Of a stretch of 36,436 nucleotides of DNA, positions 6,257 through 34,559 are shown in pieces. The position numbers and the translations under genes were made by a program. Where the stretch lies: positions 1 through 36,436 of the IMG/VR virus record IMGVR_UViG_3300042518_001245; one strand, given 5' to 3'. Under the pieces are notes generated by a model. It saw nothing but the letters and a program-made list of their open reading frames with translations. It was not told where the DNA came from and ran no database searches. Origin of the DNA: a virus. Positions within the stretch are counted from its first letter, which is position 1. Every line of letters starts with the position of its first letter.

Positions 6257-6276
6257 GGTTTCTCTACATGCTAAAA

Positions 6277-6519: not shown

Positions 6520-6522
6520 AAT

Positions 6523-8441: not shown

Positions 8442-8454
8442 TGTGGCGGATCTC

Positions 8455-8895: not shown

Positions 8896-8930
8896 GGCTA
8901 CCTCCTTCTGGATATGTTTAAAGTACCACT

Positions 8931-8973: not shown

Positions 8974-8974
8974 T

Positions 8975-10994: not shown

Positions 10995-11004
10995 GGATTA
11001 CATT

Positions 11005-13636: not shown

Positions 13637-13654
13637 TTTTAAGGAAGTTGCTAA

Positions 13655-14560: not shown

Positions 14561-14562
14561 CC

Positions 14563-15735
14563 ATGATTGCAACCGCAACCCTTGAAGCCCTATTGAAACA
14601 GATGAACACCACCATTAAAAGGGTGGGAGACCGCAAAACGCCTTTCCTTATGCGTTATTTGGACGAGCCTGCCAAAGTAAAACAACAGCAATTTTACTGG
14701 GCAGATGAATCCTTACGTGGCTATAAAGATGAATTGGTAACCGCCATTGCATCCACAGGAACCACGTCCGTCGTCGTTAAATCAGGTACGACGTTTGGCA
14801 GAAAACGCTACATTACCGATGCTGAAGCAAAGACGCATATCCGTGTTCGAGTCAACGGTGTAGACGAGATTATGAAAGTAAACGCCTACTCTGAAGGCAC
14901 GACGACCTCAACCTTGACCGTTGCCCGTGGCCAAAAAGGAACGTCGGCACTAGCGTCCATTCCTGCTGGGTCAGAAATCATCATTTTACCCGCAACCGCT
15001 GGAGACGGTGCGACGATTACAGGGGATCACGCCACTGTATCGTCCGAGTTTTGGAACTATGTTCAAGACTTCCACCGTGCTATCGGCTTGACGCATCGCC
15101 TTCAAAACATTGAAAGCGTAGACGATGAAGCAAGATTCGCCAAGCAACTTGCCAAAATGGGTGAAGAAGTGATGAAAGACGCTCAACACGCCTTTTTCCA
15201 CGAACAACGTGCAACAGGCACGGAAAACGGAAACCCCATCACATGGTCAGGTGGTTTGAACTGGTGGGCAAACAACTTTTCTAACTCCTTAGATCAAGGT
15301 GGCAAAGCCCTTAGCTTCAATATCCTTGACGACATCATGGACAACATGATTAACAACGGTGTAGATGTTCAAAACATGGATTTAATCGTCCCTGTTTCTC
15401 AACAACGTGTGTTAAACAACATGAAAGAAGCTCGTGTTGTGGGTGGCGGTACGAATCAAGGCGACAAAACAATTACGAACTTTGTCAATCGTTATGAGTT
15501 TAGCGACAAAGGGGTTTTCAATATCCTCTTGTCAACAGACTTATCGAAAGATGAAATCTACATTGTTGACAAAAGTCGTGTGTCGGTTCGCCCTATGGGT
15601 AAAGGACTCCAGTATGAAGCGGTAGACCTTGCCAAAACAGGTAAAAACGACCGTAAATACTTGGAAGTTTCTTTAGGTTTTGAAGTCCGCAATGGTCGTG
15701 AGACCTTGTTCCACTTGAAAAACTTGGCGAACTAA
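14563..15735 (+). CDS. Major capsid protein (SU10/DUF5309-type)
   Basis: The 390-residue product matches the SU10-like major capsid pattern (DUF5309, HK97 fold): an N-terminal LEALLKQMNTTIKRVGDRKTPFLMR segment, then WADESLRG, then a long helix VQDFHRAIGLTHRLQNIESVDDEARFAKQLAKMGEEVMKDAQ (given as a pattern; the spine-type helix). Residues about 80-140 (VRVNGVDEIMKVNAYSEGTTTSTLTV and GTSALASIPAGSEIII) form a beta-rich insertion that may protrude from the shell. Later come the DLIVPVSQQRVLNNM and VSLGFEVRNG segments. It follows the scaffold by 2 bases and is followed by a terminator-like hairpin. Good confidence from motif and position. Confidence 0.85.
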   Translation: MIATATLEALLKQMNTTIKRVGDRKTPFLMRYLDEPAKVKQQQFYWADESLRGYKDELVTAIASTGTTSVVVKSGTTFGRKRYITDAEAKTHIRVRVNGVDEIMKVNAYSEGTTTSTLTVARGQKGTSALASIPAGSEIIILPATAGDGATITGDHATVSSEFWNYVQDFHRAIGLTHRLQNIESVDDEARFAKQLAKMGEEVMKDAQHAFFHEQRATGTENGNPITWSGGLNWWANNFSNSLDQGGKALSFNILDDIMDNMINNGVDVQNMDLIVPVSQQRVLNNMKEARVVGGGTNQGDKTITNFVNRYEFSDKGVFNILLSTDLSKDEIYIVDKSRVSVRPMGKGLQYEAVDLAKTGKNDRKYLEVSLGFEVRNGRETLFHLKNLAN

Positions 15736-15741
15736 TCCACA

Positions 15742-15774
15742 AGGCACGGTGTAAAAAGCCGTGCCTCCCATTTT
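15742..15774 (+). terminator. Terminator-like hairpin after major capsid gene
   Basis: AGGCACGG (15742-15749) pairs with CCGTGCCT (15759-15766), followed by CCCATTTTA. It lies 7 bases past the capsid stop. The T tract is weak, so it may stabilise the capsid mRNA or partly terminate it while allowing read-through to decoration and tail genes. Confidence 0.65.
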
Positions 15775-15802
15775 ACCATGATTTAATTTAGGAGGGCATA
15801 CC

Positions 15803-16258
15803 ATGCCAGCATCACGTACCGTTCGAGACCCCGAACTTTTAGCCGTTGCCAACTTTTCAGGCATTACGGCGACGACCTTATTAAACTTTGTTGGAATCAA
15901 TGGATCGGTTGAGCCATCCGTTGACTTAGGCAACATTGATATTAGCTCCATTATTTTAGAAAGCGAAGTGACGGCAATTTCAGGAACCACTCCCACGTTG
16001 AGGGTGTCCACTAAAACGTCTAATAAACAAGCTATTGACGTCAACTCCGCCAATGCGTTGCAAGGCGACGGCTCCACACAGTTCCAAACGCCAGCTAACC
16101 AAACCGCCGTAGGAACGGTACAAGTAGGCTTGGCTCCACAGGCTTCAACTGGAGCAACCGCTAGCAATATCGGTAAATACTTGGGATTGCTTGCCACTGT
16201 TGGGGGAACTACCCCTGTAATCAGTGGACAAGTTCGCTTGTACATCAAAGGCAAATAA
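15803..16258 (+). CDS. Head decoration-type protein, 151 aa
   Basis: A 151-residue beta-rich protein with few charged residues and many Thr, Ser, Val and Gly. It starts with an extended segment (PASRTVRDPELLAVANFSGITATTLLNF) and continues as strands (VTAISGTTPTLRVSTKTSNKQAI, then TAVGTVQVGLAPQASTGATASNIGKYLGL). The composition and place right after the capsid suit a capsid decoration or head-stabilising protein. A GGAGG ribosome binding site lies before the ATG (15790-15794 region). No named family recognised. It is followed by a stronger intrinsic terminator. Confidence 0.65.
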   Translation: MPASRTVRDPELLAVANFSGITATTLLNFVGINGSVEPSVDLGNIDISSIILESEVTAISGTTPTLRVSTKTSNKQAIDVNSANALQGDGSTQFQTPANQTAVGTVQVGLAPQASTGATASNIGKYLGLLATVGGTTPVISGQVRLYIKGK

Positions 16259-16280
16259 CCCTAGCCCCCTTTCCTCTAAT

Positions 16281-16315
16281 AGCCTCCCTTCCCTACAGGG
16301 GGGAGGCTTCTTTTT
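16281..16315 (+). terminator. Intrinsic terminator after decoration gene
   Basis: AGCCTCCC (16281-16288) pairs with GGGAGGCT (16301-16308), followed by TCTTTTT. This is a good Rho-independent terminator in the gap between the decoration gene and the head-tail adaptor. Confidence 0.8.
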
Positions 16316-16328
16316 AAAAGGTGACCTT

Positions 16329-17012
16329 ATGGACTTTTTAACCCTTGTGAAAAAAGTGGGGAGCTTGACAGACGTAGAAACCAGCAGTCTTGTCACCCTC
16401 ACGAACCCCAGCAGGCAAATCGACCGCCTTAAAACGCACGTCAATAATGCGTATAATTTCGTATGGCTTGCCTTATTCCCGAAGAATGAAGACGCCGAAA
16501 GCTCAACCACGGTTTCAACGGTTGCAAATCAAGACTACATCAACATACCCTTTCCACAGGTGAACATGGTTGCCAATGGCAACAACGCCCCTTATCGCAT
16601 CTTGCCTTGGCTTGAGTTCGAGGTAAACTACAAGCGAAACGGCACGATTAACGAAACCCCAGTACTGTATGGCGAACCGAACGTTTGTAGCATTTATCAA
16701 AAACGACTTTACTTGTACCCCACGCCTGATAGTGCCTATTCGCTTACGGTACGTGGCAACCTAGATTTTACAGAGCTTTCCGCAGACAGCGACACCCCCC
16801 TATTGCAAGACCAGTTTCACATCGTGATTCAGATGTTCGCTATCGCAGAAGCCCTTAAATACCAAGGCGACCCCATGTTTCAGACCGCACAGGCGGACGC
16901 ACAGACTATGCTAGGCGTGGTTAGAAAGAATATGCGAGGCCATCAAGGGATGCCCCCCTCGATTATGACAGAAGAAGACTACGAGCTTGCCAATTACAGG
17001 ACTTTTTACTAA
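16329..17012 (+). CDS. Head-tail adaptor / head completion protein
   Basis: The start is ATG 16329, supported by AAAAGGTGA about 5 bases upstream; an in-frame start further left at 16224 would read back through the terminator. The 227-residue protein begins with a helix (MDFLTLVKKVGSLTDVETSSLVTLTN pattern), includes YNFVWLALFPKNEDA, an N-terminal alpha-helical feature seen in adaptor proteins that bind below the portal, then a beta-rich middle (residues 60-160), and a C-terminal helical region with IAEALKYQGDPMF. It lies between the decoration gene and the tail hub, the usual adaptor position (P22 gp4-like place). Its stop and the next start overlap by one base (TAATG). Assigned by position and secondary structure. 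Confidence 0.65.
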   Translation: MDFLTLVKKVGSLTDVETSSLVTLTNPSRQIDRLKTHVNNAYNFVWLALFPKNEDAESSTTVSTVANQDYINIPFPQVNMVANGNNAPYRILPWLEFEVNYKRNGTINETPVLYGEPNVCSIYQKRLYLYPTPDSAYSLTVRGNLDFTELSADSDTPLLQDQFHIVIQMFAIAEALKYQGDPMFQTAQADAQTMLGVVRKNMRGHQGMPPSIMTEEDYELANYRTFY

Positions 17013-18535
17013 TGCCTACAGCAACATACACCAATTTTGGCGGAGGCATTAACCGCAAAACGGTCGGTTCCTACTTGGTTCCCAAGGGTGAAGACGATTC
17101 CTTTATGTATGCTGAAAACATCAATAATATGAGAGTGGACTTAGGAAGCATTACCAAAGTCAACGGCTTTACGGCAGTCGCCAACCCTACCGCTGAAGCA
17201 AATGCAGGGCAGGGAATTTTTAGTTTTAAGGGCGAGTTAATTTCATGCTTCAACGGCAAAATTTACAAGGGCATCACCACGCCGACCCAAGTCAAAACAG
17301 GGGCCAGCACGACCGCCAAATGGACGGCAAGCAAGTTTAAAGACTTCCTTATTATGTGTAATGGTGTAGACAAGCCTGTAACATGGAACGGCACAACCGC
17401 AAGCGACATCACCATTATTGAAAACTCTACCCCTATATGGAATGACGCACGCCCTAAAGGATCCGCCGTATTCAGAAACCGCATCTTTTATTGGGGCGAC
17501 CCAGCCAACCCCGACACAATCTATACCCCACAACCTGAAACAATCGGCAACTTTGACAACACAAACAGCACCGTCGACTTTTTCGATGTAATGCCGGGCT
17601 ACGGCGGAGCCATTAAAGCCGTTGTTCCTTTTGCGGATGATATGCTTGTTATTTATAAAGAAAGTTGTATTTACTACCTATCAGGGAACGCCCCTTTTGG
17701 CTCCACAGGGGGAGAACCTTTTGCAATCAAACCTATTTCAGATGATGTGGGATGTGTAATAGACGGCGGTGTGGTGAAACTCAAAAACGAGCATTACTTC
17801 TTTTCAGAAGAAGGCTTGCGTAAATTGACCGTAACGCAGAATTACGGCAAAGTCGCCGTTGAACAACCCAACTATGTGATTCAAGACATCATCAACACGG
17901 TGAACTTCAACAACCAAACCGCCTTAGATAAAGCGACCTTAGTGTACGTTCCCAAAGACAACAACATCATCATTGGATTACCCACAGGCGCAAGCACTGA
18001 AAACAACCTTGTTTTGACCTACGACATCACCACAGGAGCAAACGCAAGACGTTCAGGGTGGAAACCCACGGCGATGTGTATTCATAAGCGTGACTTGTAC
18101 CACACCGACGTACTAGGGAACATCTATCAGCATACAGATACCGTGTTTAATAACAACGGCACGGCTTACAACGCCGAGTTTGAGTCTAAATGGATTGCAC
18201 ACGAAGGCTTGATGACGCTTAAGCGGTACAAGCAAGTTTTTATAGGCGTTGATCCCGGGTTTCAAGCTACATTGAATGTGCGTTGGTATGTATTAACCGA
18301 CGCCCAACCCACAGCCACGCTGGAGTCTATCGTTTTAAACGGCGGGGCGTTATGGGATTCTGCGCAGTGGGATGTGGCAACATGGAACGACGGAGGCAAT
18401 AGCCTAACGCCTATTGTCAACCTAGGTAAAGGTAAGGCGATTAAAATCATTCTATCGTGCAACAATGCCAACGAACCTATCGTGATTCGTTCGATTGATA
18501 TTGAATACGAGCTACTAAGCCGTAGAAGGGGCTAA
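17012..18535 (+). CDS. Tail hub / stabilisation protein (P22 gp10-like)
   Basis: A 507-residue beta-rich protein beginning with the pattern TYTNFGGGINRKTVGSYLVP, typical of podovirus tail nozzle or packaged-DNA stabilisation proteins, where an early GGIN/K motif is followed by a D-x-x-Y-AENINNMRVDLGSITKVNG segment. Later segments (FRNRIFYWGD, FADDMLVIYKESCIYYLSG, EHYFFSEEGLRKLTV) are repeated beta-propeller-like blades. Such proteins form the tail hub that closes the portal and carries the fibres. It lies after the adaptor with a one-base overlap and before the GNAT gene. Confidence is good for the family type; the partner fibres are not identified. Confidence 0.75.
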   Translation: MPTATYTNFGGGINRKTVGSYLVPKGEDDSFMYAENINNMRVDLGSITKVNGFTAVANPTAEANAGQGIFSFKGELISCFNGKIYKGITTPTQVKTGASTTAKWTASKFKDFLIMCNGVDKPVTWNGTTASDITIIENSTPIWNDARPKGSAVFRNRIFYWGDPANPDTIYTPQPETIGNFDNTNSTVDFFDVMPGYGGAIKAVVPFADDMLVIYKESCIYYLSGNAPFGSTGGEPFAIKPISDDVGCVIDGGVVKLKNEHYFFSEEGLRKLTVTQNYGKVAVEQPNYVIQDIINTVNFNNQTALDKATLVYVPKDNNIIIGLPTGASTENNLVLTYDITTGANARRSGWKPTAMCIHKRDLYHTDVLGNIYQHTDTVFNNNGTAYNAEFESKWIAHEGLMTLKRYKQVFIGVDPGFQATLNVRWYVLTDAQPTATLESIVLNGGALWDSAQWDVATWNDGGNSLTPIVNLGKGKAIKIILSCNNANEPIVIRSIDIEYELLSRRRG

Positions 18536-18536
18536 T

Positions 18537-19094
18537 ATGGAACAGCTTAAACTGGTGCCTATCAATTTCAACCAAGACGCTAATTTTGTGAACCAGTGCC
18601 TAAAAGCGTGCATTGAACACCTTGAACGCCACACAACAGACAACACCGTCTTAAGCGTGCTTTTCTTGGAAGAGCAAGCCCAAAAAGGCAACCTCCAAAT
18701 CTTCAAGGGCTTAGTCGATGATGTCCCAGTTGGCATGATGATTCTAAACCTATTCCCTAACAGTATCGCCGAAGTGCAAGCCGTGATGATTCCTGAAAAA
18801 CGCAAAGGATTTTCGCTTTCCCCAAGAGCCTTGATTTTCCTTAAAATGATGGCGGATTACGTCTTTAGAGACCTTGGCTTGTACAAACTTAAAGCCCTTG
18901 TAAGACGCATGAAGAAGAACCCAGCGGAAGTGATCGCCCGACGTGTTGGCTTTAAAAAGGAAGGCATCCTAAAAGGCGAATGGAACGGCTATACCGAACG
19001 AGGGGATGTTTTGATACTGGCTTATCTCAAGTCAGACTACGAAAAAGACAACGCCCCAAGCGGTATGATTATAGAAGAAATCAAGGAGTCCTAA
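18537..19094 (+). CDS. GNAT-like acetyltransferase in virion gene block
   Basis: The 185-residue protein resembles GNAT N-acetyltransferases, which use acetyl-CoA to acetylate an amine. The recognisable part is the C-terminal half: RPLIFLKMMADYVFRDLGLYKLKALVRRMKKNPAEVIARRVGFKKEGILKGEWN is the pattern, with key pieces FRDLGLYKLKALV, NPAEVIARRVGFKKEG and GDVLILAYL, all GNAT-like (neighbouring-strand, V/I-Q-x-R-less helix, then GF-x-x-EG). The acetyl-CoA P-loop between residues 90 and 105 reads PEKRKGFSLSP, weaker than R/Q-x-x-G-x-G/A. A GNAT at this position occurs in several podoviruses. Substrate unknown. Separated by 1 base from the tail hub and 3 bases from the next gene. Confidence 0.7.
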   Translation: MEQLKLVPINFNQDANFVNQCLKACIEHLERHTTDNTVLSVLFLEEQAQKGNLQIFKGLVDDVPVGMMILNLFPNSIAEVQAVMIPEKRKGFSLSPRALIFLKMMADYVFRDLGLYKLKALVRRMKKNPAEVIARRVGFKKEGILKGEWNGYTERGDVLILAYLKSDYEKDNAPSGMIIEEIKES

Positions 19095-19097
19095 ACC

Positions 19098-19808
19098 ATG
19101 GGAAAAGGCGGATCACCACAACCCCCAGTTCAACAAGCCCCCCAAGACCCAGCAGGGGAAATTTTACGTCAAGACGGCAAGACGCAAGTCCAACGCATTT
19201 ACGACCCAAGCAAAAAACAATTTACGACAGATGTCACAAGCGACCCCCAAGATTTACAAGTACAGGGTATCGCACGGCAAGGAATGCTCAACACCGCCAA
19301 CACCGCAGGCACGTTTGACACATCGAAAGCAGGGCTAGAGGCTTATCAAAACGCCTTAGCAGACCCCCAACGCCGAGCGGTAAATAGTGCCTACGACCAA
19401 GCCGAAGGCAACGCCATGTTAAACGCCAGCGGTAACGGCATGAGTCAATCCGCAGGCTTTGCCAACTATTTCGCCAAGCAACTTGCAGGGCAACGAGCCA
19501 AGGATTTAGCAGACGTGGAAAGCTCCGCCTTCTTAAATCGTGGGCAAGCTTTAAGTGCAGATATGGCTCCAAACACCGATTTATCAAACTACTACACCGC
19601 TATGTCACAAGGACAACAAGCCCAGCTACAAGGCTTAAACAGCCAAAACATTGCAGGGGCAGGCGTAGGCATCAACCAGTTACGCACGATGCAAGACTTG
19701 GAAAATTCACGGTTTAGCAATGCAATGAATACCTATAACGCCCGACCAGCACGACCTAAAAGCTTTGGTCAAAAATTATTAACTTACTCCACAGGCGGAG
19801 CGTTTTAA
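19098..19808 (+). CDS. Putative internal virion (ejection) protein, 236 aa
   Basis: A soluble helical protein, rich in Ala, Gln, Asn and Gly. It begins with a Gly/Pro-rich segment (MGKGGSPQPPVQQAPQDPAG) and continues as predicted helices (TGMLNTANTAG, AVNSAYDQAEGNAML, AKQLAGQRAKDLADVESSAF, NQLRTMQDLENSRFSNAMNTYNAR). This is the usual look of the small ejection proteins that podoviruses store in the capsid and send into the periplasm with DNA (P22 gp7/16/20-type place). It lies between GNAT and the next small ejection-type gene. Assignment by composition and order. Confidence 0.6.
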   Translation: MGKGGSPQPPVQQAPQDPAGEILRQDGKTQVQRIYDPSKKQFTTDVTSDPQDLQVQGIARQGMLNTANTAGTFDTSKAGLEAYQNALADPQRRAVNSAYDQAEGNAMLNASGNGMSQSAGFANYFAKQLAGQRAKDLADVESSAFLNRGQALSADMAPNTDLSNYYTAMSQGQQAQLQGLNSQNIAGAGVGINQLRTMQDLENSRFSNAMNTYNARPARPKSFGQKLLTYSTGGAF

Positions 19809-19823
19809 AAAGGAGTCTTTAAA

Positions 19824-20213
19824 ATGGCGATAGATCCCGCAACAATGATGATGATTGCACAACAAGTGCAAAAGATGAAGGACAAAGCAAACGAACCCGC
19901 TTCACCAGCAGGTTCAGGAGTCATGATGCCAACCCAAGTATTGGGCGGTGTGCCAAGCCCTAATGTTCAATCCCAACAGCCAATGTCACCTATGCGACAG
20001 GCAGGAATGGGAGCCTTACAGGGCTTCGCACAAGGCGGTTTAGGCGGTGCTTTAATCGGTGGCGGTGTGCCTTTAGTCCAAAACTACATGAACAATCGCA
20101 ACGAGCAACGCTTACAACAGCAAGCCCCCCCTATGTATTACAAGCCCACCGCCGAAGATGACAGCCCTTTTCGTCGTGCGATGATGCAACAGCTCCAAGC
20201 ACAAGGAAAATAA
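19824..20213 (+). CDS. Putative internal virion protein, 129 aa
   Basis: A short protein starting with a Met-rich helix (MAIDPATMMMIAQQVQKMKDKAN), then a Gly/Pro/Ser linker, then a Gly-rich hydrophobic segment (GMGALQGFAQGGLGGALIGGGVPL, pattern of a glycine zipper) at residues 55-80 and a charged C-terminus. The glycine zipper may insert in or cross a membrane during ejection. It lies 15 bases after the previous ejection-type gene. Family not recognised. Confidence 0.55.
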   Translation: MAIDPATMMMIAQQVQKMKDKANEPASPAGSGVMMPTQVLGGVPSPNVQSQQPMSPMRQAGMGALQGFAQGGLGGALIGGGVPLVQNYMNNRNEQRLQQQAPPMYYKPTAEDDSPFRRAMMQQLQAQGK

Positions 20214-20217
20214 AATC

Positions 20218-22041
20218 ATGGGTGCGAATCAAAACCAGCAAAACCAAGTTTATCAGATTGTGGCAGGAAACGGCTTGCAGACCGCCCCCTTTGGCTTGCC
20301 GATTGGAGAAAGTTACGACCCTACTAAAAAAGCCACGTTCGGACAGAAGCTCATGCAAGGATTGGGCTATGCAGGAGCGTTTGCTAAAGGATCTATGGAA
20401 AGCGGAACGCCTAGCTTATTAGGTGGACTAGGAGGACTTGGAAGCCAGTATAACCTTCAACAGTACAACCAAGCCCAGCTCAAACAACAGCAGGACGCCA
20501 TGGAGCGTGCGAGACAGGCGGAACTCCAACAGCAAGCAGAAAACCTGATGCTTGCCAACGAAGCACGGATCGCACAAGGCTTGCCACCGATTGACCCCAC
20601 ACAAGGCACTGGAGGCATGAGAACAAGCCCCGAAGACGTGAGATCAAACCTTACCTATGTAGGAAGTGCGTTAGGTAATCAAGCTATGGTAAACGAAACC
20701 CTTGGCAATGGATTTAATCCACAAGCAGGGGCGTTGTTGTCAGAAAGTTATATTACCGACCGTAACAGACAAATAAACAAAAACCTTACAAATATGGCAA
20801 CCCTTGGCAAAACATCAGAAGCCTTGACGGCAGGAGCCCAAGCAGGGGGCAACGTCAACACGGCAGGCGTCCCACAAAGTGCCATTACTCCAACAAGCAA
20901 CGGCGACCCATTCAGACAAGCCCTTGGCTTTGTCCGCAAGGCAGAAGGAGGCTATGCCAACAACCCAGCCGACAAGGGAGGAGCCACAAACCTAGGCATC
21001 ACCCAAGGGACTTACAATTCGTGGAGAAAGTCGAACAAGCTCCCCTCTAAAGACGTCAAGGACATCACAGAAGGCGAAGCGACCGCCATTTACAAGAAGA
21101 ACTATTGGGACGCAAGCGGAGCAGGCAAGCTAGCCAAGACAAACCCAGCCCTTGCACAGGTGCATTTTGACACCGCCGTCAATATGGGTGTAGGCAGAGC
21201 GTCACAACTCCTTAAGATGAGTGGACAAGATCCGAACAAGTACCTTGCCATTCGCCAACAAAAATACAACGAGTTTGCTCAAAACCCCTCACAAAAGCAA
21301 TTCTTAGAAGGGTGGACGAACCGAAACGAGAACTTAAAGAAATCCATTGCAGGCTTGCAACCCCAAGGCAAGGCTCCTAAATCCACCGTGGCACAGGGCA
21401 ACCCCCAAGCCCAAGGGCAGATTATGGGAAGCTTGAATGCGTACAATACCAGCCCACAGCTTCGCCGTGATGCGATACAAAACCCTTATCAAGTGGCTAT
21501 CGCAGACCCCGACGCTTTGATGCGTGGGTTTGGTGCAGGAGCCGACACGCAAAACGCCGTCAACAACACAAACTTGAACTACAGAGGGCAGAACATCCAG
21601 CAAGAGCAAAACAAGGTGTCTACCGCTTTAAATTATGCTCAACTTGCAGAATCCAAGCGACAGAATGATATTCAAGCACTGCAAGCCAAGACTAATGCGG
21701 AAGCCGTCGCCATGCAGAAAGCCCAAGAAGCCGAATCAAAAAGAGTGGGTCAGCTTGAGGCACAAAACACCAGGCTTACAGAAATCTTATCTAAGAAAGA
21801 CACCCCTCCTAAGCAGAGAGAGGCTATCCAAGCACAGATCGACAAGAACACCGCAACCCTTGGCACGATTCAAACAGGCTTGCCATTTAATCAGAACGGA
21901 CAGATTGACTTTTCAGGAGGCTGGGCTTCTCAACCGCAACCACAAGCCAAGGCTACCCCCAAACAGCAGGCTCCCAAGAGAGAGCAAGCCCCAGCACGAG
22001 TAAATCAAAAGTGGAATCCAAACACTAGAAAGTTTGAATAA
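20218..22041 (+). CDS. Ejection protein with GH108 peptidoglycan hydrolase domain
   Basis: A 607-residue protein. Residues about 230-385 form a glycoside hydrolase 108 domain, with catalytic Glu243 in the KAEGGYANNPADKGGAT pattern followed by NLGITQGTY, then a helical part including NYWDASGAGKLAKTNPALAQVHFDTAVNMGVGRASQ in pieces, matching the fold of GH108 lysozymes. The flanks are Gln/Ala-rich helices (residues 60-140 and 430-560). As it lies inside the ejection cassette and not near a holin, it is probably carried in the virion to open a local hole in the wall on infection. The gene shares a base with the next start (TAATG). Strong domain support; the virion placement is inference. Confidence 0.8.
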   Translation: MGANQNQQNQVYQIVAGNGLQTAPFGLPIGESYDPTKKATFGQKLMQGLGYAGAFAKGSMESGTPSLLGGLGGLGSQYNLQQYNQAQLKQQQDAMERARQAELQQQAENLMLANEARIAQGLPPIDPTQGTGGMRTSPEDVRSNLTYVGSALGNQAMVNETLGNGFNPQAGALLSESYITDRNRQINKNLTNMATLGKTSEALTAGAQAGGNVNTAGVPQSAITPTSNGDPFRQALGFVRKAEGGYANNPADKGGATNLGITQGTYNSWRKSNKLPSKDVKDITEGEATAIYKKNYWDASGAGKLAKTNPALAQVHFDTAVNMGVGRASQLLKMSGQDPNKYLAIRQQKYNEFAQNPSQKQFLEGWTNRNENLKKSIAGLQPQGKAPKSTVAQGNPQAQGQIMGSLNAYNTSPQLRRDAIQNPYQVAIADPDALMRGFGAGADTQNAVNNTNLNYRGQNIQQEQNKVSTALNYAQLAESKRQNDIQALQAKTNAEAVAMQKAQEAESKRVGQLEAQNTRLTEILSKKDTPPKQREAIQAQIDKNTATLGTIQTGLPFNQNGQIDFSGGWASQPQPQAKATPKQQAPKREQAPARVNQKWNPNTRKFE

Positions 22042-25000
22042 TGGTTTTATCATGGGAAGAATACACCAAAACCGACGGATTTCAAAACCTAAGCGTCGAA
22101 CATAAGAAGCTTGCAAGCGACCAGTATTTTCAACAAGTCGTCATGCCTAAACTTGGCAAGCAATACGACATCAAAAACCCAAATGTGTTAGCAGGGGCTT
22201 ATTCACAGTTTCAGCAAGAAGCCGTAAAGCCGACGCTCATAGATCCCCCAAACCAATTCCTTAAATCCCTTGGCAATAAATACGCCGAGCAGGCGACAGG
22301 CGGAATCATTGACACGCAAGAAGGCACGGACTGGCTAGGCTCAACAGCAGGGGCATTATTAGGCGGTGCAACAAACGTAGGGGCTGGAATGGCTATAGGC
22401 GGGGCAATCGGCTCCGTAGTGCCAGTTCTAGGAACCGCCGTAGGGGCTGGAATCGGTGGAACCCTAGGGGCAGTGGCAGGCGGATTCGGTCAAAGTTTGC
22501 GTGAACGCCAAAACGAGGGGAAAACTTTCGACCAGCTCGACGCAGGCGATTATGGACGTGCTATTTTAGAAGGCGGTATTAACGCCGTCCCAGTTGTGGG
22601 AATCGGAGCCAAGCCAATCACCAAACTAGCAACAGGGGCTTTATTTGATGCTGGCTTAAACGCAGGTGCCAACGCCCTAGGGCAACAGGTGCAAAAGGGC
22701 GAAATCGACGGCATGGAAGTGCTTCAACAAGGAGCCTTCGGTGCAGGCGGACACTTGGCAGGGGGCATTATTAACAAGTTCTTTCAAAAGCGAGCCTTAA
22801 AAGCCGAAGCACAAGCCCAAGCTCAAGAAGCCTTACAAGGTGTCGATGCGTCCCAAGTGGGTGTCTTGCCACAGGACGGCACGCCGAACGTCCGCACGGA
22901 TTTAACCGACGTCTTCCCCTATCAAGAAGACGCTCCCTTTGATGTGCAAGGCTTCAACCAAGACCGCACGGCACAGATTCAAACCGATTTACAAGCCAAG
23001 ATTCAAGAAGCCGTCACACTCAAAGCACAAGGGAGCCACAACGAGGCAAAACTTATTCGTGCCAGCCTTTCCAAGCAAATGAACACCCTAGCTAAAAATG
23101 ACGACCCCCTAGCCCGAGACTTTGCCAAAGCCCTAGACCAAATCGATACCCAAGCCAAAGCCTTAAAGCAGGGCAAGCCCCCGCAAGACATCATCCCTCA
23201 AGACTCTTTCGACCCCAACACGGCAGAAATAGGCGAAACACGCATCGACCCCAACACAGGCGAAACCGTCTATTATGGCGGTGAAATCACTAACAACCCC
23301 AACGCTCCAGACCTCCCCGACCCCTTCTTTACAGAAGAGCTTCAACGCCGTGAAAAAGTGAATACCCTTGAACCCATAGGAACACCAGTCAAGCCCAAGA
23401 TTCTTAAAGGCGACTTTGAAAAGGTGACGCTTAAAGACATTGAAGACGTGCTAGGCGATCAACTGGCACCGTCATCTAATGTGGGGCAGTCCTACGCCGT
23501 GGATACCCTTAAATCATTAGGCTACAAGGTTGATAAACTCAAAGCGTCTGCTAAAGGCGTGGATTCACGAGCAGGTGAAAACTATCGTGTGAAAGTGGCA
23601 GGAAAAAACATCATCTTTAAGGGGCAAGACCCATTCGCCACCGTTACCAATCGACTAAGCAAAGAACACGGCATCAACATTTCAAGCAGTATCGCCAAGC
23701 GTATTTCTAAAGACAAAAACTTCGACGCCTTGAACGAGCTTGTCTTGATGAACGACGATGAACTAGACCAGCAGTATTCAGAAGGACAAGGCACCGCAAG
23801 CCAAGCCTTCCAAGCCTTCCAAGAAAAACTTTCAGGCAACCAAGGGGCGGAACGTGATTTTCAAAGCAACAAGTCCTTTGCTATTCAGGAAGCCAAGACG
23901 CAGGAACTTCTCAACGACCTAGACAAAGCTCACACCCCCCAACACCTAGCGGAAATCGAACAGCGTTATCAAGACGTGCTAAATACCAGCATTTACCCCG
24001 AATACACGCAGGAAATCATCACCCCTAAACTTGAAGAAACCCAAGTGCTTATAGAAGGGTTTACGCCTTTAAATAAGGGCAAGCAAGAGCAGTTGAGAGC
24101 AAGGCTTGAACGTGACTTAAACCAAGCCCAAACACCCGAAGACATTGCCCGAGTGGCGGACGAGCTTTACAGCGACAACACCGCCAAAGCCCTAGTTGAT
24201 GAAGCCAGCTTTTACGAACCACTAGGGGCAAAACTACAGGAAGCCGAGGCACGAGTCAACGATCCGAACAGGGCAACCAGTGCAGAAAATGCACAAGTTC
24301 GTTCCAAAACGGAACCAACTGAACCCCTCCCCCTTAAAAAAGGAGGCACCGCCACATCACAAAGCGGAGCAGGCTCCCCACAAGCACGGCTCGACGGCAA
24401 GGCACAAGAGCTTGGCTATCAACACATCAAACACTTGATGCAGGGCTACAAAGCGATTGGCGGAGATCTCACACCAGCCAAGCTTAAAGCCGTGCTTGAA
24501 GCCAAGCCCGAACTTCAAGCCGTAGCGGATTCATTCAAGCCGTTGATAGGCAAGACTCACCCCGACGGAACGCCCAAGTATCCCGAAGAGATTGAGTTTC
24601 AAGAAGCCATGCGAGAAATCGCACGGACGCCTGAACGATACCTTGACTATGAAAGCGGTACAGGCAGACAGCAAAGCGTGAAGGAGCTTGCCAACAAAGC
24701 CCCTCAAGACTGGAACACTATCGAGCAAGTAAAGAAAGACCCAGCCTATGACTTGGCAAGCAACGCCACAAAAAAGCGTGTCGAGCTTATAGACCGCCTG
24801 ATGAAGCAACACAAAACCATGGACGTAGAAATCGCGACTGAAGGGGGCATGAGTGGCAAGGGTGGAGCCACCAACGCCATAGACGCCAAGAAACGGCAAA
24901 ACATCACCCCGTTGTCATTCGCCATTCACAACGACCAAATCGCCGTGAATGCGTACAACGCCGACGGACACTTTGCTAAGTATTACATCGACCTTGACCC

Positions 25001-25478
25001 ACGCCTTGTGAAGGAAGGGAAAGAGGCAAGCCGATTCTTAAACGACCCTGTAGAGTCCACCGCCCCCGAGTTCGTGGGAACCTACCCCAACGTGTACCGT
25101 GACGCAATCCCCTTCTTATTGGAAGACGTGCTAAACCGCAAGCCACGAGAAGAAGGCATCCTCACAAGCCAAGCCCGAGACGTGCTAGACACAGCAAGAG
25201 CGTTCAAGTCCAAGCTAAACAAGGAACAACAGCTCCAAATCAAGTACGGTGCGAACATTAAGGACATCAAGAAGATTCAACATGAGTTGATGAAGCTTAA
25301 CGCCCCCGAAAACGTCAAGAAATTGACGGATGCTATACTAAACAAGGCAGGCAACAAGAAAAAGCTCACAGCAAACGACATCATCGCCATTAAAAAGACG
25401 CTTGAGAAAGAGCCAACACTAAAGGCACTTAAAGGGATGTGCGACCTCTTCAAGCTTTCCACCGCAAATTTAGAATAA
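22041..25478 (+). CDS. Large ejection / internal virion protein, 1145 aa
   Basis: The largest protein of the genome. It opens with WEEYTKTDGFQNLSVEHKKLASDQYFQ, a pattern often seen at the N-terminus of podovirus internal virion proteins, and carries a long hydrophobic glycine-zipper stretch at about residues 95-155 (GALLGGATNVGAGMAIGGAI then GTAVGAGIGGTLGAVAGG), able to insert into a membrane. The rest is long, charged and helical with coiled-coil segments at about 245-350 and 590-760, and a mixed C-terminal domain with Ala/Lys-rich helices. No catalytic motif is recognised. It is expected to extend the tail channel across the cell envelope. Its gene follows the GH108 gene by a TAATG overlap. 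Confidence 0.7.
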   Translation: MVLSWEEYTKTDGFQNLSVEHKKLASDQYFQQVVMPKLGKQYDIKNPNVLAGAYSQFQQEAVKPTLIDPPNQFLKSLGNKYAEQATGGIIDTQEGTDWLGSTAGALLGGATNVGAGMAIGGAIGSVVPVLGTAVGAGIGGTLGAVAGGFGQSLRERQNEGKTFDQLDAGDYGRAILEGGINAVPVVGIGAKPITKLATGALFDAGLNAGANALGQQVQKGEIDGMEVLQQGAFGAGGHLAGGIINKFFQKRALKAEAQAQAQEALQGVDASQVGVLPQDGTPNVRTDLTDVFPYQEDAPFDVQGFNQDRTAQIQTDLQAKIQEAVTLKAQGSHNEAKLIRASLSKQMNTLAKNDDPLARDFAKALDQIDTQAKALKQGKPPQDIIPQDSFDPNTAEIGETRIDPNTGETVYYGGEITNNPNAPDLPDPFFTEELQRREKVNTLEPIGTPVKPKILKGDFEKVTLKDIEDVLGDQLAPSSNVGQSYAVDTLKSLGYKVDKLKASAKGVDSRAGENYRVKVAGKNIIFKGQDPFATVTNRLSKEHGINISSSIAKRISKDKNFDALNELVLMNDDELDQQYSEGQGTASQAFQAFQEKLSGNQGAERDFQSNKSFAIQEAKTQELLNDLDKAHTPQHLAEIEQRYQDVLNTSIYPEYTQEIITPKLEETQVLIEGFTPLNKGKQEQLRARLERDLNQAQTPEDIARVADELYSDNTAKALVDEASFYEPLGAKLQEAEARVNDPNRATSAENAQVRSKTEPTEPLPLKKGGTATSQSGAGSPQARLDGKAQELGYQHIKHLMQGYKAIGGDLTPAKLKAVLEAKPELQAVADSFKPLIGKTHPDGTPKYPEEIEFQEAMREIARTPERYLDYESGTGRQQSVKELANKAPQDWNTIEQVKKDPAYDLASNATKKRVELIDRLMKQHKTMDVEIATEGGMSGKGGATNAIDAKKRQNITPLSFAIHNDQIAVNAYNADGHFAKYYIDLDPRLVKEGKEASRFLNDPVESTAPEFVGTYPNVYRDAIPFLLEDVLNRKPREEGILTSQARDVLDTARAFKSKLNKEQQLQIKYGANIKDIKKIQHELMKLNAPENVKKLTDAILNKAGNKKKLTANDIIAIKKTLEKEPTLKALKGMCDLFKLSTANLE

Positions 25479-25488
25479 GGATACCCCC

Positions 25489-27072
25489 ATGACTGAATGT
25501 AGCCCCGAGTCCATTACAGGAGCCTTGACCGCCACGCTTGAAGCCGTGGGTGTTGATACCATGGAAGCCAAGCTAAGCATGAGCAAGGCACAAAAGCAGG
25601 GCTACACCGCCAAAATTGATGATCTGTTTGATGATGCCTTCCACGACGGAAGCCGACTAAGAGAAGGCGACGACAAGATTATTGACTGGATCGCAGGAAG
25701 CCGTGACAACTTCGACAAGCCAGCCACCAGTGCAGGGCGAGTGATTAACGGCACCAAGTCCTTATTTTACCAGTTTAGAAACGTAAGCCAGTCACTAGGG
25801 GAAGACGTGGTGCAACCCTTTCAAAAGATTATGGAGAAGATAAACGGCGAGTACAAAGACAATCCCGACGGACGCAAGATTTACACCGCCTTGATAAAAG
25901 ACAAAATCAAAGAGCTTGAAAACACACGCCCCGAATTGACAGATTCGCCAGCATGGAGCAGATACAGCAAATGGCTAAAGGACGGCGGAAGCCTGTATCA
26001 CACAGACCACCAAAACGTCTTGGCTAAAGGCGTGAATAACGTGGTGTCGAACATCATTACAGGTAACTTCAACGTGTTCGGCGGAAACTTAATCGAGATG
26101 ATGAAGGTTCCCGTTTTGTACGGAGGCGACGCACTAAAGACGATAAGCCACGCCACCAACTTCACCAAGCGAGACGACCTTGTGAAAGCAGGCGTGTTTC
26201 AAGAAACCGACATCCCCTTCAAAGAAAACCCAGCAGACCCCAAGGTATGGAACGCCCTAAGAAAAGCAAACTATAAAGGCTTACAAACTATACAAGACTT
26301 GACGTTTCTATTTGATGCCCCGATGAAGACGTGGGCGTATGAAGCAGGCAAAGCCAAAGGCGGACATGAGGAAGGGATGCGAGCCGTGCAACGCATCACC
26401 TTTGCCAACCGCCTTGCAGATCCTACTTTTATGCAGATTGACCCAGTGGGACGACTTGGCACACAATTAACGAACTACGGCATGGGAACGGTGCGTTTAT
26501 ACGGTAACTTGTGGCATGAAGTTGCCAGCTTTAAGCAAGACCCCGAACGGGCCAAGCAAGCCGTCGCAGGCTTAATCCTATACCACACATGGCTAGGCTT
26601 GAGTGCAGGCACTTTAAACGCCTTACAAGGGAAGGACTTCAACGAGGCGTTTCAAATAGGAGCCTCACAAGTCCCCCTTTTGTACGGTATCGCCGAAGCC
26701 ATAAGCCCCGAGCTACAGGAAAAGTCCGAACGCAACAAAGGGGCAGGAACTCAACTCACACAGGCGTCAGGTGTAGGACGTTTGTTTGTAGGGCTTGATA
26801 TTGCCAAGAAAACCGTAGACACAACAGGGAGATCACTCAAGAAAGCACACGAAGCCGTGATGAATGACGACCCAGAGACCGCCGTGCGTGAAGCGACACG
26901 AGCTTTAATCAAGTCATCAACGTTTATACCCAGCGTGACAGGTACTAAAGTAGGGCAAGGCGTAAGCGATTGGCTCCTTGATTGGAACGAGGGCGACTTT
27001 GAAGCCGACGAAGCAGGCAAGCAACTCTTAGGACGCACGACGCCGTTTTACAAGGATGAAGTCCAGCCCTAG
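25489..27072 (+). CDS. Internal virion protein, 527 aa
   Basis: The last gene of the plus-strand virion block. The protein is long and mainly helical. At residues 175-210 the segment VNNVVSNIITGNFNVFGGNLIEMMKVPVLYG (in pieces: VVSNIITGNFNVFGGNL then EMMKVPVLYG) is a hydrophobic stretch that could interact with a membrane. A second amphipathic region (TQLTNYGMGTVRLYGNLWHEV, then QAVAGLILYHTWLGLSAGTL) lies at about 330-390. The C-terminus (residues 440-527) is charged. Position after the other ejection genes suggests that it is a third large ejection protein. Its stop overlaps the stop of the convergent terminase large subunit by a shared CTAG. No family name is certain. Confidence 0.65.
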   Translation: MTECSPESITGALTATLEAVGVDTMEAKLSMSKAQKQGYTAKIDDLFDDAFHDGSRLREGDDKIIDWIAGSRDNFDKPATSAGRVINGTKSLFYQFRNVSQSLGEDVVQPFQKIMEKINGEYKDNPDGRKIYTALIKDKIKELENTRPELTDSPAWSRYSKWLKDGGSLYHTDHQNVLAKGVNNVVSNIITGNFNVFGGNLIEMMKVPVLYGGDALKTISHATNFTKRDDLVKAGVFQETDIPFKENPADPKVWNALRKANYKGLQTIQDLTFLFDAPMKTWAYEAGKAKGGHEEGMRAVQRITFANRLADPTFMQIDPVGRLGTQLTNYGMGTVRLYGNLWHEVASFKQDPERAKQAVAGLILYHTWLGLSAGTLNALQGKDFNEAFQIGASQVPLLYGIAEAISPELQEKSERNKGAGTQLTQASGVGRLFVGLDIAKKTVDTTGRSLKKAHEAVMNDDPETAVREATRALIKSSTFIPSVTGTKVGQGVSDWLLDWNEGDFEADEAGKQLLGRTTPFYKDEVQP

Positions 27073-28520
27073 ATGCTGAAATACAGCTCCTTTTGTTCAA
27101 AGGCTTTCTTTTTGATGACATCAATCTTCAAGGGTTCGTAATAGTCCACCATACAGCTTAAGGCGTCAAAGGCGTGATCCGAAAACCACTTTTGACTAGG
27201 GTCTCTTGCTATTTGAGCAGGCGAGGGCAAGTCGTAGTCGTTGCACCCTTCTTTAAAGCGTAGATTCTGAATACATTGAATCGTTCGCTTACAGCGTGGG
27301 TCGAGATACACAAACATTTCACCGTTCGCATTGCAGACCTTGGCTTTGAAGGACTCAATACGGCGACTAATGGCAGGGTTCCCCTTGTTTGTGGCGACTC
27401 TCACATTGTCGTGTCCGTATTCACGACGCAATAGGTTGAGCATCTTGGTATAGAGCGAATTGCGTTCATCCTTTGCCTTGTCTTCCACCGTAACGCCGAC
27501 GTGATTAAAGCCAGCCGACGCATCCCCATTGATGATGATGCCATGCTTGATTTTATCCTTGGGGAACTTCTCAATCAAGGCACGGCACATTTCGTCCACG
27601 TCTGTTTTTTCAAGGCACAGCTCATCAAAGGCGTGAAATTCGCCATTCACACGTTGCACAAAGACCCAACAGCAGGGGTCAAAGTTAAAATCGCAGGTGA
27701 CATGAAGGGGCAACTCCTCCCGATGCTTCAATTCCCTGATGTTGTTTTCGGTAAAGTTATTCACAACCAGCCCCCTTGTTAGGTTACAGTCCTCGCCAAG
27801 CACGAAGACCCTGAACATGTCTTCATCCATGGATTGACGCAGTGTTTCAATGAACGAGTACCCAATGTGTGGGTTTTCAATGGTAGACGCACGACGCTTT
27901 CTAAAGCAAACTTGCACCTTTTCGCCGTTGCGTGGATCGGTAACGGATGTAATCTTAAACGGCGTGTCAAACAGTTCAGCCATCCACCCACGCCGAGCTT
28001 CAGGGTTTGATGTAATAAAGATACGATGCACAGGGAGATTCCCTTGCCTTACACGTCCTATGACTTCAAGCAGGTGTCCCCTTGTCTTGAGTAGAGAACC
28101 TTCATCAACGTGTGCGAACGAGGCGTTGATTGAGCGAATCGATTGCGGATTATCCAATGAACGAAACAACAGTATCGCCCCATTCCAGCACTTGAACGTC
28201 ATCCTCATGTTGGAACGATTAAACGTGTAGTCGATGCCTTCCACAAGCCCGAAGTCATTTAAAAGCTTTTGATATGTGGGTATTGTGGCATCTCTTAGCA
28301 TGGAATAGGAAGGGGCACAGACAAGCCCAGTGACGGCATCCACCTTGTCGCACAATTCTTGGCAAAGCAGAAGACAGCCAAAAGCACCGGGCAAAGTTTT
28401 GCCACTACCATAGCCACCTTGCAAAAAGGCAACATCATGCCCTCCAGTGAAGCCGACAGGCAGTTCAAGCATCCACTTTTGAGCAGGCAACAGGGTAAAC
28501 TCAAAGACATCCTCATTCAT
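27069..28520 (-). CDS. terL: Terminase large subunit (TerL)
   Basis: A 483-residue packaging motor ATPase and nuclease. Walker A is GGYGSGKT (residues 35-42), Walker B is FAHVDEG with Asp139 and Glu140, and a coupling-type SNPE motif (FITSNPEARRG) follows. The C-terminal nuclease has acidic residues in CDFNFDP, NGDASAG and HAFDALSC, fitting the RNase H-like nuclease fold. The start is ATG 28520, in the sequence GAATGAGG overlapping the TerS stop by 8 bases with GGGGAGG upstream; the frame could be extended to 28541 but without a better site. The gene is on the opposite strand from portal and capsid. It converges with the virion block with a 4-base overlap of stops. Confidence 0.9.
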   Translation of the reverse strand: MNEDVFEFTLLPAQKWMLELPVGFTGGHDVAFLQGGYGSGKTLPGAFGCLLLCQELCDKVDAVTGLVCAPSYSMLRDATIPTYQKLLNDFGLVEGIDYTFNRSNMRMTFKCWNGAILLFRSLDNPQSIRSINASFAHVDEGSLLKTRGHLLEVIGRVRQGNLPVHRIFITSNPEARRGWMAELFDTPFKITSVTDPRNGEKVQVCFRKRRASTIENPHIGYSFIETLRQSMDEDMFRVFVLGEDCNLTRGLVVNNFTENNIRELKHREELPLHVTCDFNFDPCCWVFVQRVNGEFHAFDELCLEKTDVDEMCRALIEKFPKDKIKHGIIINGDASAGFNHVGVTVEDKAKDERNSLYTKMLNLLRREYGHDNVRVATNKGNPAISRRIESFKAKVCNANGEMFVYLDPRCKRTIQCIQNLRFKEGCNDYDLPSPAQIARDPSQKWFSDHAFDALSCMVDYYEPLKIDVIKKKAFEQKELYFSI

Positions 28521-28974
28521 CAAGCGTCGCCTCCCCTTCAAATTCGAGAGGAACCGACGCCACGTTTGATATGTTCAAATTATTGCAAATGACTTTCCTT
28601 GAGAGTGTTTCTTCAACGCCTATTTCAAGTTTATCTTTCCAACCGCACAGGTTTTTCATCTTGAAGATCCACACAATGGTGTTAAAGTTCTCAATCGCCC
28701 CATTCATGGCGTCGTTTGCAAGGTCTTCTAGGTAGTATTGAACGCAGGCGTCGCCTATCGCCTTGGCTTCTTTAAACTCCTCGTGCATCTTCATCCAGTT
28801 GTAAATTGTTTGCTTGCTTACACGGATTTTACCAGCAAATGCCTCTACAGAAAGCCCTTGTGCCATGTGGTTGATGAGCATCTCGCAGTATTTGACATCA
28901 TAACTGGTTGCCCTTGATTGTTTAGAGCCGAGAGGATGATGCACAATCTCTGTTTCATACTTTTGAGGCTCCAT
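28513..28974 (-). CDS. terS: Terminase small subunit (TerS)
   Basis: The 153-residue protein begins with a basic stretch, followed by a helix-turn-helix at about residues 25-65 (YCEMLINHMAQGLSVEAFAGKIRVSKQTIYNWMKMHEEF in pieces: LSVEAFAGKIRVSKQTIYNW), typical of small terminase subunits that recognise the packaging site. A helical oligomerisation region follows (KAIGDACVQYYLEDLANDAM) and a polar C-terminus. It starts with GAAGGTATTAA upstream of ATG 28974 and overlaps TerL. It is co-transcribed from the promoter at 29897-29925 together with the upstream pseudo-glycosyltransferase. Confidence 0.85.
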   Translation of the reverse strand: MEPQKYETEIVHHPLGSKQSRATSYDVKYCEMLINHMAQGLSVEAFAGKIRVSKQTIYNWMKMHEEFKEAKAIGDACVQYYLEDLANDAMNGAIENFNTIVWIFKMKNLCGWKDKLEIGVEETLSRKVICNNLNISNVASVPLEFEGEATLDE

Positions 28975-28990
28975 TTAATACCTTCACTTT

Positions 28991-29857
28991 TCAATCGGCA
29001 TTTAAACAGTAAGCAGGCATCCATTCCCCCGCCCACTTTTGCGGATTCAGTTCAAGGGCTTTTAGGTAAAAGACTTGTGCCTTCTTGTAATCACCAGTAA
29101 GATTACTCACCAGCTTAAGAATAGTATAGGCTTCGGGGCGTTCGGGATTGAGTTTACAGGCTTTTAACGCCCAGTATTTCGCACAGTACGTGGCTTCAAG
29201 GGTATTTTCAGAAAGGAAGGCAAGGCAGGCGTGGAGATATTGAGCATAGGCGACGTGTGCTTTTGATTCGTGAAATTGAGCCTTTGCTAAGTGCATCAAG
29301 GGCGAACGCTTAGGCGGTTCTAAGGACTGAATAGCCAGCGAGCAGGGGCGAGGATTCGGCGGATTCAAGAGCCGTTTACCCCAGTTGTTTTGAATTAAGC
29401 CATGCTCCCCCCAGTGGTGACAGCGTGCTTGAAATAAACGCAGTTCCGGCTTTGATGATACCCCTTGCTTGACTTGACAGACCCCCGACGTGGCTTCTAT
29501 GGCATTTAAGTCTTGCACCGCTTGCTTGAGTGCGACGCTATCAAAGAGAGGCGTTTCACCTTGCTTAAGATGCAAGACCCAACGACAGGAAAGTTGAGAG
29601 ATGCCAAGACTCAACAGAGCGTTTTCACTTAATGCCTTGCGACGCTCAAAGAGCAAATCCGCCCCAATATCACAGAGGGCGGACGATTCTTGCTTACTTA
29701 ACGGCTTGTTATGAATCACCACAAGCTGATGAACGGCGTTTAAAACATCAAGCGATTCTAGCCACTCAATAAGCCCTTTTCGCCACACTAAGACCAGCCC
29801 AATTCGTTTAAGGTTTCGTGCGTCCATGCACGCCTTAGGGTTAAGGTTCAGTGCCAT
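28991..29857 (-). CDS. Degenerate GT-A glycosyltransferase-like protein with C-terminal TPRs
   Basis: The 288-residue product has two parts. Residues about 15-130 parallel a family 2 glycosyltransferase: KRIGLVLVWRKGLIEWLESL fits the first strand and helix, VHQLVVIHNKPLS fits the second strand where the D-T-G-S-T-D of active enzymes is expected, and CRWVLHLKQGETPL fits the strand where D-A-D-E is expected. The key acidic residues are replaced (HNKPLS, LKQGE), so it is probably catalytically inactive. Residues about 205-275 contain tetratricopeptide-like repeats (YWALKACKLNPERPEAYTIL and GDYKKAQVFYLKALELNP). It is the first gene of the terminase operon, 16 bases before TerS. Role unknown; a scaffold, a nuclear-like TPR binder or a decayed enzyme are options. 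The GT reading is by eye and needs structural support. Confidence 0.5.
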   Translation of the reverse strand: MALNLNPKACMDARNLKRIGLVLVWRKGLIEWLESLDVLNAVHQLVVIHNKPLSKQESSALCDIGADLLFERRKALSENALLSLGISQLSCRWVLHLKQGETPLFDSVALKQAVQDLNAIEATSGVCQVKQGVSSKPELRLFQARCHHWGEHGLIQNNWGKRLLNPPNPRPCSLAIQSLEPPKRSPLMHLAKAQFHESKAHVAYAQYLHACLAFLSENTLEATYCAKYWALKACKLNPERPEAYTILKLVSNLTGDYKKAQVFYLKALELNPQKWAGEWMPAYCLNAD

Positions 29858-29896: not shown

Positions 29897-29925
29897 AGTG
29901 TAGTACGCCTTTTTTATAGGGTCAA
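29897..29925 (-). promoter_or_regulatory. Sigma70-like promoter for the terminase operon
   Basis: Read on the minus strand, TTGACC (29925-29920) is followed after 17 bases by TACACT (29902-29897), an almost consensus -35/-10 pair. It would start transcription about 33 bases upstream of the pseudo-glycosyltransferase ATG. The stretch 29926-29990 is AT-rich with two TTGTAA copies near the -35 that could serve as an UP element or operator. Confidence 0.75.
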
Positions 29926-30004: not shown

Positions 30005-30062
30005 AAAAGCCCCCCAAGGTTTTGTCCTGAAGGGCTTTGCAAAGAAAGGATGAAAACATCCT
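30005..30062 (-). terminator. Tandem terminators after the small membrane operon
   Basis: On the minus strand, the first hairpin is AGGATG-TTTT-CATCCT (30062-30047) followed by TTCTTTG. The second is AAAGCCC...GGGCTTTTG (about 30039-30005). Both lie past the end of the 129-residue gene, so transcription from 30773 to 30083 should stop here before reaching the terminase promoter. Confidence 0.7.
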
Positions 30063-33669: not shown

Positions 33670-34068
33670 ATGAAAAACCAAGAAAAAAGCTCAAAGGACG
33701 CCCCTTTTAGATTCCATTTGAGCATTCAGCAGATGTTGTTTTTCGTGCCAACGGTTGCAATTGTGGGGGGTTTGCTTTTTACCTTACTTACCCATGTATT
33801 TAAGGAGCCAGTCGCACACGCTGAAATACAGGTGCAACATATCGCATCTTTTACACATCCGCCGATTGATCGCTTAGAGTTTGAAAAAGCAATGAGTAAC
33901 ACCTGTATCAGCCTTAACGCCTTTAATGCCCTAGCGGTAGAATACACTAAGCTAGGCTACGGCACAGCCCCTTCCTACCTTCAAATGTGTGGCAAGGAAG
34001 CCCCAGTTCCTGAACAAGCGAATAAGGGGGCAAAGCAAGAGCAGGGAAAGCCCCACGCTCAAGGATGA
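33670..34068 (+). CDS. Single-pass membrane protein, 132 aa, before endolysin
   Basis: A basic N-terminus (residues 1-18) is followed by one TM helix (QMLFFVPTVAIVGGLLFTLLTHVF, in pieces FFVPTVAIVGGLLFTLL, about residues 21-43). The periplasmic part has two cysteines (CISL and MCGKEAP) and a Lys/Gln-rich C-terminus. It overlaps the GH108 lysin by ATGA. Topology with an N-in anchor and a periplasmic domain suits a pinholin-associated protein or an i-spanin-like protein. The call is by context. Confidence 0.55.
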   Translation: MKNQEKSSKDAPFRFHLSIQQMLFFVPTVAIVGGLLFTLLTHVFKEPVAHAEIQVQHIASFTHPPIDRLEFEKAMSNTCISLNAFNALAVEYTKLGYGTAPSYLQMCGKEAPVPEQANKGAKQEQGKPHAQG

Positions 34069-34559
34069 GCAAAGAACCGACTAGGCTTAAGAAGCTGAAA
34101 GTCAAACGCTTGACCTTTGAGGTGGCAATGCATAGCGTCTTCAATAGTGAAGGCGGGTACTCAAACCACCCAAAGGATAGCGGAGGCGTTACCTACAAAG
34201 GCATATCAAGTGCTTTTTATAAAGAGCTTGTGAAAGACCACCCTAAGCGATACAGAAATGTATCTGTTACGAAGTTGACGCAAGCGGAAAGGCTTGCTAT
34301 TTATCGCAAGTGGTTTTGGGAAGCAAGCGGTGCGGATCGTATTCCAAACCCAGCTCTTGCCCTTCAAGTGTTTGACCATGCGGTTAATGCAAGCGTGTTT
34401 CGTGCCAATAAATTACTAAAGAACGGCAACACCACGCCTAAAATGTACCGCAACGCACGGCACACGGCGTATGAGAACGATCCAAACTGTGCCACGTTTT
34501 GTGACGGCTGGCATCCAAGGGTCGAGCGTGTTTATAAAAAAGGATTAGAACTAAGCTGA
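34065..34559 (+). CDS. GH108 endolysin (lysozyme-like)
   Basis: The 164-residue enzyme belongs to the glycoside hydrolase 108 family of phage lysins. The catalytic Glu29 lies in FNSEGGYSNHPKDSGG, then VTYKGISSAFY, and the C-terminal helical part includes YRKWFWEASGADRIPNPALALQVFDHAVNAS (in pieces: WFWEASGADRIPNPALALQV). It has no signal peptide or anchor, so it needs a holin or other membrane pore. A basic N-terminus (KEPTRLKKLKVKR) is notable and could help it bind the wall or membrane. It overlaps the upstream membrane protein (ATGA) and precedes the small holin-like protein by 14 bases. This is the second wall hydrolase acting at lysis, in addition to the amidase. Confidence 0.88.
   Translation: MSKEPTRLKKLKVKRLTFEVAMHSVFNSEGGYSNHPKDSGGVTYKGISSAFYKELVKDHPKRYRNVSVTKLTQAERLAIYRKWFWEASGADRIPNPALALQVFDHAVNASVFRANKLLKNGNTTPKMYRNARHTAYENDPNCATFCDGWHPRVERVYKKGLELS

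Follow-up and report, generated by a model that had tools for sequence, protein, structure and literature searches.

Does the open reading frame (ORF) in front of the terminase genes of this phage encode a glycosyltransferase that has lost its active site, and, if so, what would such a protein do at this position? The ORF lies in a stretch of 36,436 nucleotides (hereafter the window) that belongs to a temperate tailed phage with an integrase, RecT, a portal-type protein (phrog_332), an SU10-like major capsid protein (MCP), and three peptidoglycan hydrolases. The first-pass annotation, which was made from the letters alone, placed the ORF at 28991-29857. This span is exact, but the gene reads from the minus strand, and across the interval the plus strand is riddled with stops. 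The ORF and its surroundings are as follows.

28991-29857, minus strand (29857→28991): ORF of 288 amino acids with an N-terminal GT-A-like half and a C-terminal TPR-like helical half, present in four contigs, dN/dS ~0.04
28513-28974, minus strand: terminase small subunit TerS (phrog_309, E=2e-13), which begins 16 nt past the ORF
27069-28541, minus strand: terminase large subunit TerL (PF04466, E=3e-11; phrog_2, E=3e-34)
29897-29925, minus strand: likely promoter of the ORF-TerS-TerL operon, TTGACC-17-TACACT in the window, from comparison with relatives
30006-30038, minus strand: intrinsic terminator 5' of the operon, which closes off the preceding genes; the stem and T-run are conserved in relatives

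The ORF is a real gene under strong purifying selection and not a chance reading frame. It was also found in three other IMG/VR contigs, at the same position before TerS-TerL and with 96% protein identity. dN/dS was 0.037-0.044 for the whole protein, which is near the value for TerL (0.021-0.036, about 0.02-0.04), and 0.028-0.058 for the two halves taken separately. Since both halves gave such low values, the N-terminal domain, which lacks the motifs described below, is itself under selection. Beyond these four near-identical copies, no relative was recovered by tblastn in phages and plasmids or by a scan of genome contigs, and an HMM search of kin collected on the basis of TerL detected no homologue of the ORF. 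Motif patterns that were widened and partly synthetic returned the same three contigs only. The scan of genome contigs for the MCP gave nothing, and the MCP alignment was poorly conserved.

The ORF is predicted to head the TerS-TerL transcription unit, and its position before TerS and then TerL had been correctly described. Co-transcription is suggested by the 16-nt gap, the upstream promoter and terminator, and the relatives with the same gene order; the likely start of TerL, judged from the sequence, is the ATG at 28520, which overlaps the end of TerS. The promoter had been ranked as the best in the stretch. It is backed by a comparison with the relative L004, the promoter of which (TTGACG-17-TATAAT) is nearer to the consensus than that of the window (TTGACC-17-TACACT, 29925-29897). 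However, the window promoter matches at 9 of 12 positions, whereas three other sites in the stretch reach 10 of 12.

The relative L013 has TerS, TerL, and gp22 in common with the window, but has no gene of this kind before TerS. Therefore, the terminase has no general need of the ORF. Recombination seems to have split the history of the operon, because TerL is much closer to L004 than the ORF is (dS of 0.19 vs 0.62; window 27069-28541 against L004/L007). The flanks of the ORF locus are mosaic. As a separate observation, a 143-amino acid mini-intein (PF14890, E=6e-10) is present inside the TerL Walker A motif (GGYG^SGKT) of the relatives L002 and L003, and its site is empty in the window and L004.

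L005:8136-8564 and L006:2867-3295: TerL mini-intein, the site of which is 28407/28408 in the window

The terminase operon and a lysis and tail-fibre-like block (5551-8982, minus strand) are opposite in direction to the head-tail block (9006-27072, plus strand).

The N-terminal half had been described as following the strand order of GT-A family 2 enzymes, with TPRs behind it. The proposed domains and sites are located as follows.

29378-29821, minus strand: proposed degenerate GT2 (GT-A) domain, residues 13-160, from hhalign and threading to 98 GT2-TPR proteins and from family-informed AF2
29696-29713, minus strand: HNKPLS, residues 49-54, at the position of the DTGS nucleotide-binding motif in alignments; invariant in four copies
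29618-29629, minus strand: SENA, residues 77-80, at the position of the (A)ARN motif in alignments; invariant in four copies
29555-29569, minus strand: LKQGE, residues 97-101, at the L/I-DxD-E position (metal/UDP-sugar binding) in alignments; invariant in four copies
29039-29200, minus strand: TPR-like helices, residues 220-273, with a TPR score confined to approximately 230-274; P=5e-5 in hhalign against the subfamily of short phage GT2-TPR proteins

No glycosyltransferase match for the ORF product or its halves was obtained in Pfam, NCBIfam, or PHROGs at E values up to 1-10, with TPR being the only match, and a PDB sequence search with the ORF product similarly found no glycosyltransferase in the N-terminal half, only TPR. 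A search for PF13704 across the record returned no match, and hmmsearch with the first GT2 HMM did not list the ORF at E<10. A generic GT2-TPR consensus written from family knowledge led to real members of the family, namely, plasmid and phage proteins and subsequently 80 viral loci. Against 98 GT2-TPR proteins, hhalign gave P values of 6e-4 for the whole product, 0.009 for the N-terminal half, and 2e-4 for the C-terminal half. The order was co-linear, with the N-terminal half falling onto the glycosyltransferase domain, the C-terminal half onto the TPR part, and the spacing matching. In local mode, the N-terminal half ranked 13th among 482 real proteins, which is weak; the global mode settled on an end-overlap path for the ORF and, thus, carries no information on the GT2 match.

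In semi-global threading of the N-terminal domain, scores as good were reached by 3 of 1200 real-protein decoys and 1 of 300 shuffles; in a second set of decoys, 11 of 1500 did as well. At the level of proteins, 16 of 1034 decoys scored as high as the domain, and approximately seven of these resemble other GT-A enzymes by eye. The specificity controls for threading (TerL profiles and a reversed GT2 profile) gave no signal. When the N-terminal half was exchanged and the C-terminal half kept, the ORF score on a broad profile was reached by 8 of 1200 real N-terminal segments and none of 400 shuffles; the corresponding counts on a narrow phage subfamily profile were 68 of 1200 and 12 of 400. Because the narrow-profile counts are weaker than the broad ones, support for GT2 depends on the profile chosen. 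An HMM of the short phage GT2-TPR proteins ranked the ORF first among 4599 ORFs (E=0.15), with hhalign placing the signal in the C-terminal half; the N-terminal half alone had no match to this subfamily profile by hhalign (P=0.25). Decoy p values were about 0.003-0.03 across the tests and about 0.003-0.01 for threading of the N-terminal domain, and are somewhat optimistic because the GT2-TPR family was picked after the resemblance had been seen. The GT-A strand order was thus recovered, with its spacing, by unsupervised profile alignment with negative controls; however, the support is moderate, and no family library shows GT-A. The ORF product probably descends from GT2-TPR proteins, and the first-pass annotation caught something real that no library flags.

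Structure prediction had been proposed as a check on the fold, and its outcome was mixed. The family-free AF2 model, built from the four copies, was of low confidence (pLDDT 49, pTM 0.36). Its strand and helix order was like that of the GT-A half, but its PDB matches were TPR structures. In Foldseek, its N-terminal half matched no GT-A fold, and the few non-TPR matches of the model included methyltransferases. The family-informed AF2 model was obtained by aligning the ORF product with 36 viral GT2-TPR proteins. For residues 21-120, its pLDDT averaged ~81, with block means of 68-88; a large part of the acceptor half (residues 122-137 and 150-183) was below 50. The best PDB matches of this model were SunS/ThuS, a partly circular test because the GT2 alignment carries the fold along. 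We consider this model to indicate compatibility with the GT-A fold, not proof of it.

In the C-terminal half, the plural "TPRs" was an overstatement. A single TPR-like stretch at residues ~230-274 was detected with E=5e-4, and its 20.3 bits are below the Pfam gathering score of 27.8; more helical sequence precedes it. The paired-helix fold of a TPR was found in this region, with the best-scoring helices of the family-free model at residues 220-270, TPR matches in PDB, and a pLDDT of 79-91 for residues 221-270 in the family-informed model.

The acidic residues expected at the nucleotide-sugar site had been reported as replaced, with HNKPLS and LKQGE quoted in their place. Both motifs are present at residues 49-54 and 97-101, and the acidic residues are absent at the aligned positions in all four copies. 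In the GT2-TPR alignments, DTGS is changed to HNKP, ARN to SENA, and DxD to KQG, identically in four of four copies, and no substitution between the copies falls inside HNKPLS, SENA, or LKQGE. The HE motif is absent from the ORF product in these alignments, and E101 is an acid retained just after the DxD position. If the ORF product is a GT-A protein, sugar transfer by the conventional metal-dependent mechanism should not be expected of it.

Phage contigs frequently carry intact GT2-TPR genes, often in virion modules. In L146/L147, such a gene is flanked by TerL and a collagen-like gene, with the L146 copy directly before TerL; in L174, it follows TerL; and in L122, its neighbors are a collagen-like gene and a large virion-protein-like gene. 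The GT2 loci L121 and L150 have virion genes in common with the window phage. Since intact copies occupy these places in other phages, a GT2-TPR gene near terminase or virion genes is not strange, whereas a dead one is. A search for the same gene order in other phages, which had also been proposed, gave the three near-identical contigs and the intact gene before TerL in L146. The earlier statement that no phage system like this has been described may hold for the dead version, and we found no literature on pseudo-glycosyltransferases in phage packaging; it does not extend to active GT2-TPR proteins, which occur in virion modules and once before TerL.

The phage GT2-TPR proteins of IMG/VR (L122, L132, L146, L152, and L162) are like the ORF product in length (~290-300 amino acids for the short ones) and domain order, but have intact DTGS and DxD, with identity of ~11-18% in a joint alignment. 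The peptide S-glycosyltransferases SunS/ThuS (PDB 7msp, 7msn, and 7msk) have a GT-A domain followed by TPR-like helices, as proposed for the ORF product, and SunS has a similar link to phages, being derived from the SPbeta prophage. However, these enzymes are active and have the nucleotide-sugar motifs that the ORF product does not, and identity in the fold alignment is ~10-14%. GmaR of Listeria (PDB 22ao) also resembles the ORF product in its N-terminal glycosyltransferase and TPRs, but differs in having an active glycosyltransferase domain and an extra C-terminal antirepressor domain (637 amino acids in total), and is cellular and unrelated to packaging. When the glycosyltransferase domain is removed, the remaining GmaR fragment has an affinity for MogR similar to that of the full protein (PMC9638930). 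GmaR is thus a precedent for a binding role of a GT-TPR protein that is independent of the glycosyltransferase domain.

We tentatively favor the reading that the ORF product is a catalytically dead GT2-TPR derivative that is still selected and acts by binding, although we would not call it probable. The annotation as a repurposed inactive enzyme agrees with the selection on a motif-less sequence, but no homologue beyond the four near-identical copies was found in the databases searched. The ancestor would have been a phage GT2-TPR glycosyltransferase with a GT-A domain and then TPR-like helices, as in the SunS/GmaR architecture. Sugar transfer may then have been lost and the protein retained for binding, with the TPR groove and the former acceptor surface keeping hold of the target protein of the ancestral enzyme, most simply a phage virion protein. 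Because the ORF would be made together with the terminase, we speculate that its late production may turn it into an assembly or packaging adaptor, a mechanism that we propose only weakly. A role in packaging in particular is doubtful. It is equally doubtful that a phage GT2-TPR enzyme, after losing its active site, became established in the first position of the terminase operon as a dedicated non-catalytic factor for assembly or packaging, i.e., a pseudoglycosyltransferase recruited into virion morphogenesis. Any direct part in DNA packaging is suggested only by the predicted transcription unit in common with the terminase, and the gene may about equally well be a simple passenger.

The passenger reading concerns the role of the ORF and overlaps with the readings of its ancestry: the gene, whatever its origin, would be a moron that only shares the terminase promoter and has no packaging role. 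We regard this as quite possible while leaning away from it. The lack of the gene before TerS in L013, the mosaic flanks, and the larger dS of the ORF than of TerL against L004 are in keeping with a passenger, whereas the strong selection on the ORF, its identical location in every copy, and the similarity of the 5' regions are not. Regarding ancestry, it is possible, though we incline against it, that the ORF product is an orphan protein of the alpha/beta type, with a TPR at its C terminus and no glycosyltransferase descent, which works through the TPR as an adaptor in virion assembly or in contacts with the host. The motif substitutions would then be meaningless because an active site never existed. 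The absence of glycosyltransferase family matches for the N-terminal half at any threshold, the poor family-free model with methyltransferases among its non-TPR matches, and an N-terminal significance of only ~1% against decoys point in this direction; the co-linear alignment of the two halves with GT2-TPR proteins, at corresponding spacing, and the negative specificity controls argue for descent. It is improbable that the ORF encodes a divergent, still active GT-A enzyme that would modify a virion or host-surface component by a DxD-independent mechanism. Strong purifying selection, the presence of active GT2-TPR genes within the virion modules of phages, and the acid retained at E101 are consistent with activity; however, DTGS, ARN, DxD, and HE are all gone together, and we can point to no other conserved cluster of acidic residues.

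Many GT2-TPR enzymes are encoded by phages, often within the virion gene block. If the ORF product is a dead GT2-TPR derivative, a copy that is selected without catalysis separates binding from sugar transfer, and could reveal what GT2-TPR proteins hold during assembly. If it touches the terminase, it would represent a new kind of packaging cofactor.

Collagen-like (G-x-y repeat) genes are repeated neighbors of GT2-TPR genes, in the viral loci L122 and L146 and the plasmid loci L093 and L097. This recurring proximity hints that collagen-like proteins may be the substrate of the neighboring GT2-TPR enzymes. In the tail module of the window, an ORF at 18537-19094, after the virion gene at 17012-18535, resembles a GNAT acetyltransferase by eye and has no Pfam match. 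The peptidoglycan hydrolases of this 36-kb phage comprise two GH108 domains and one amidase (20218-22041, 34065-34559, and 5551-6042), and one GH108 domain is within a 607-amino acid protein of the virion block.
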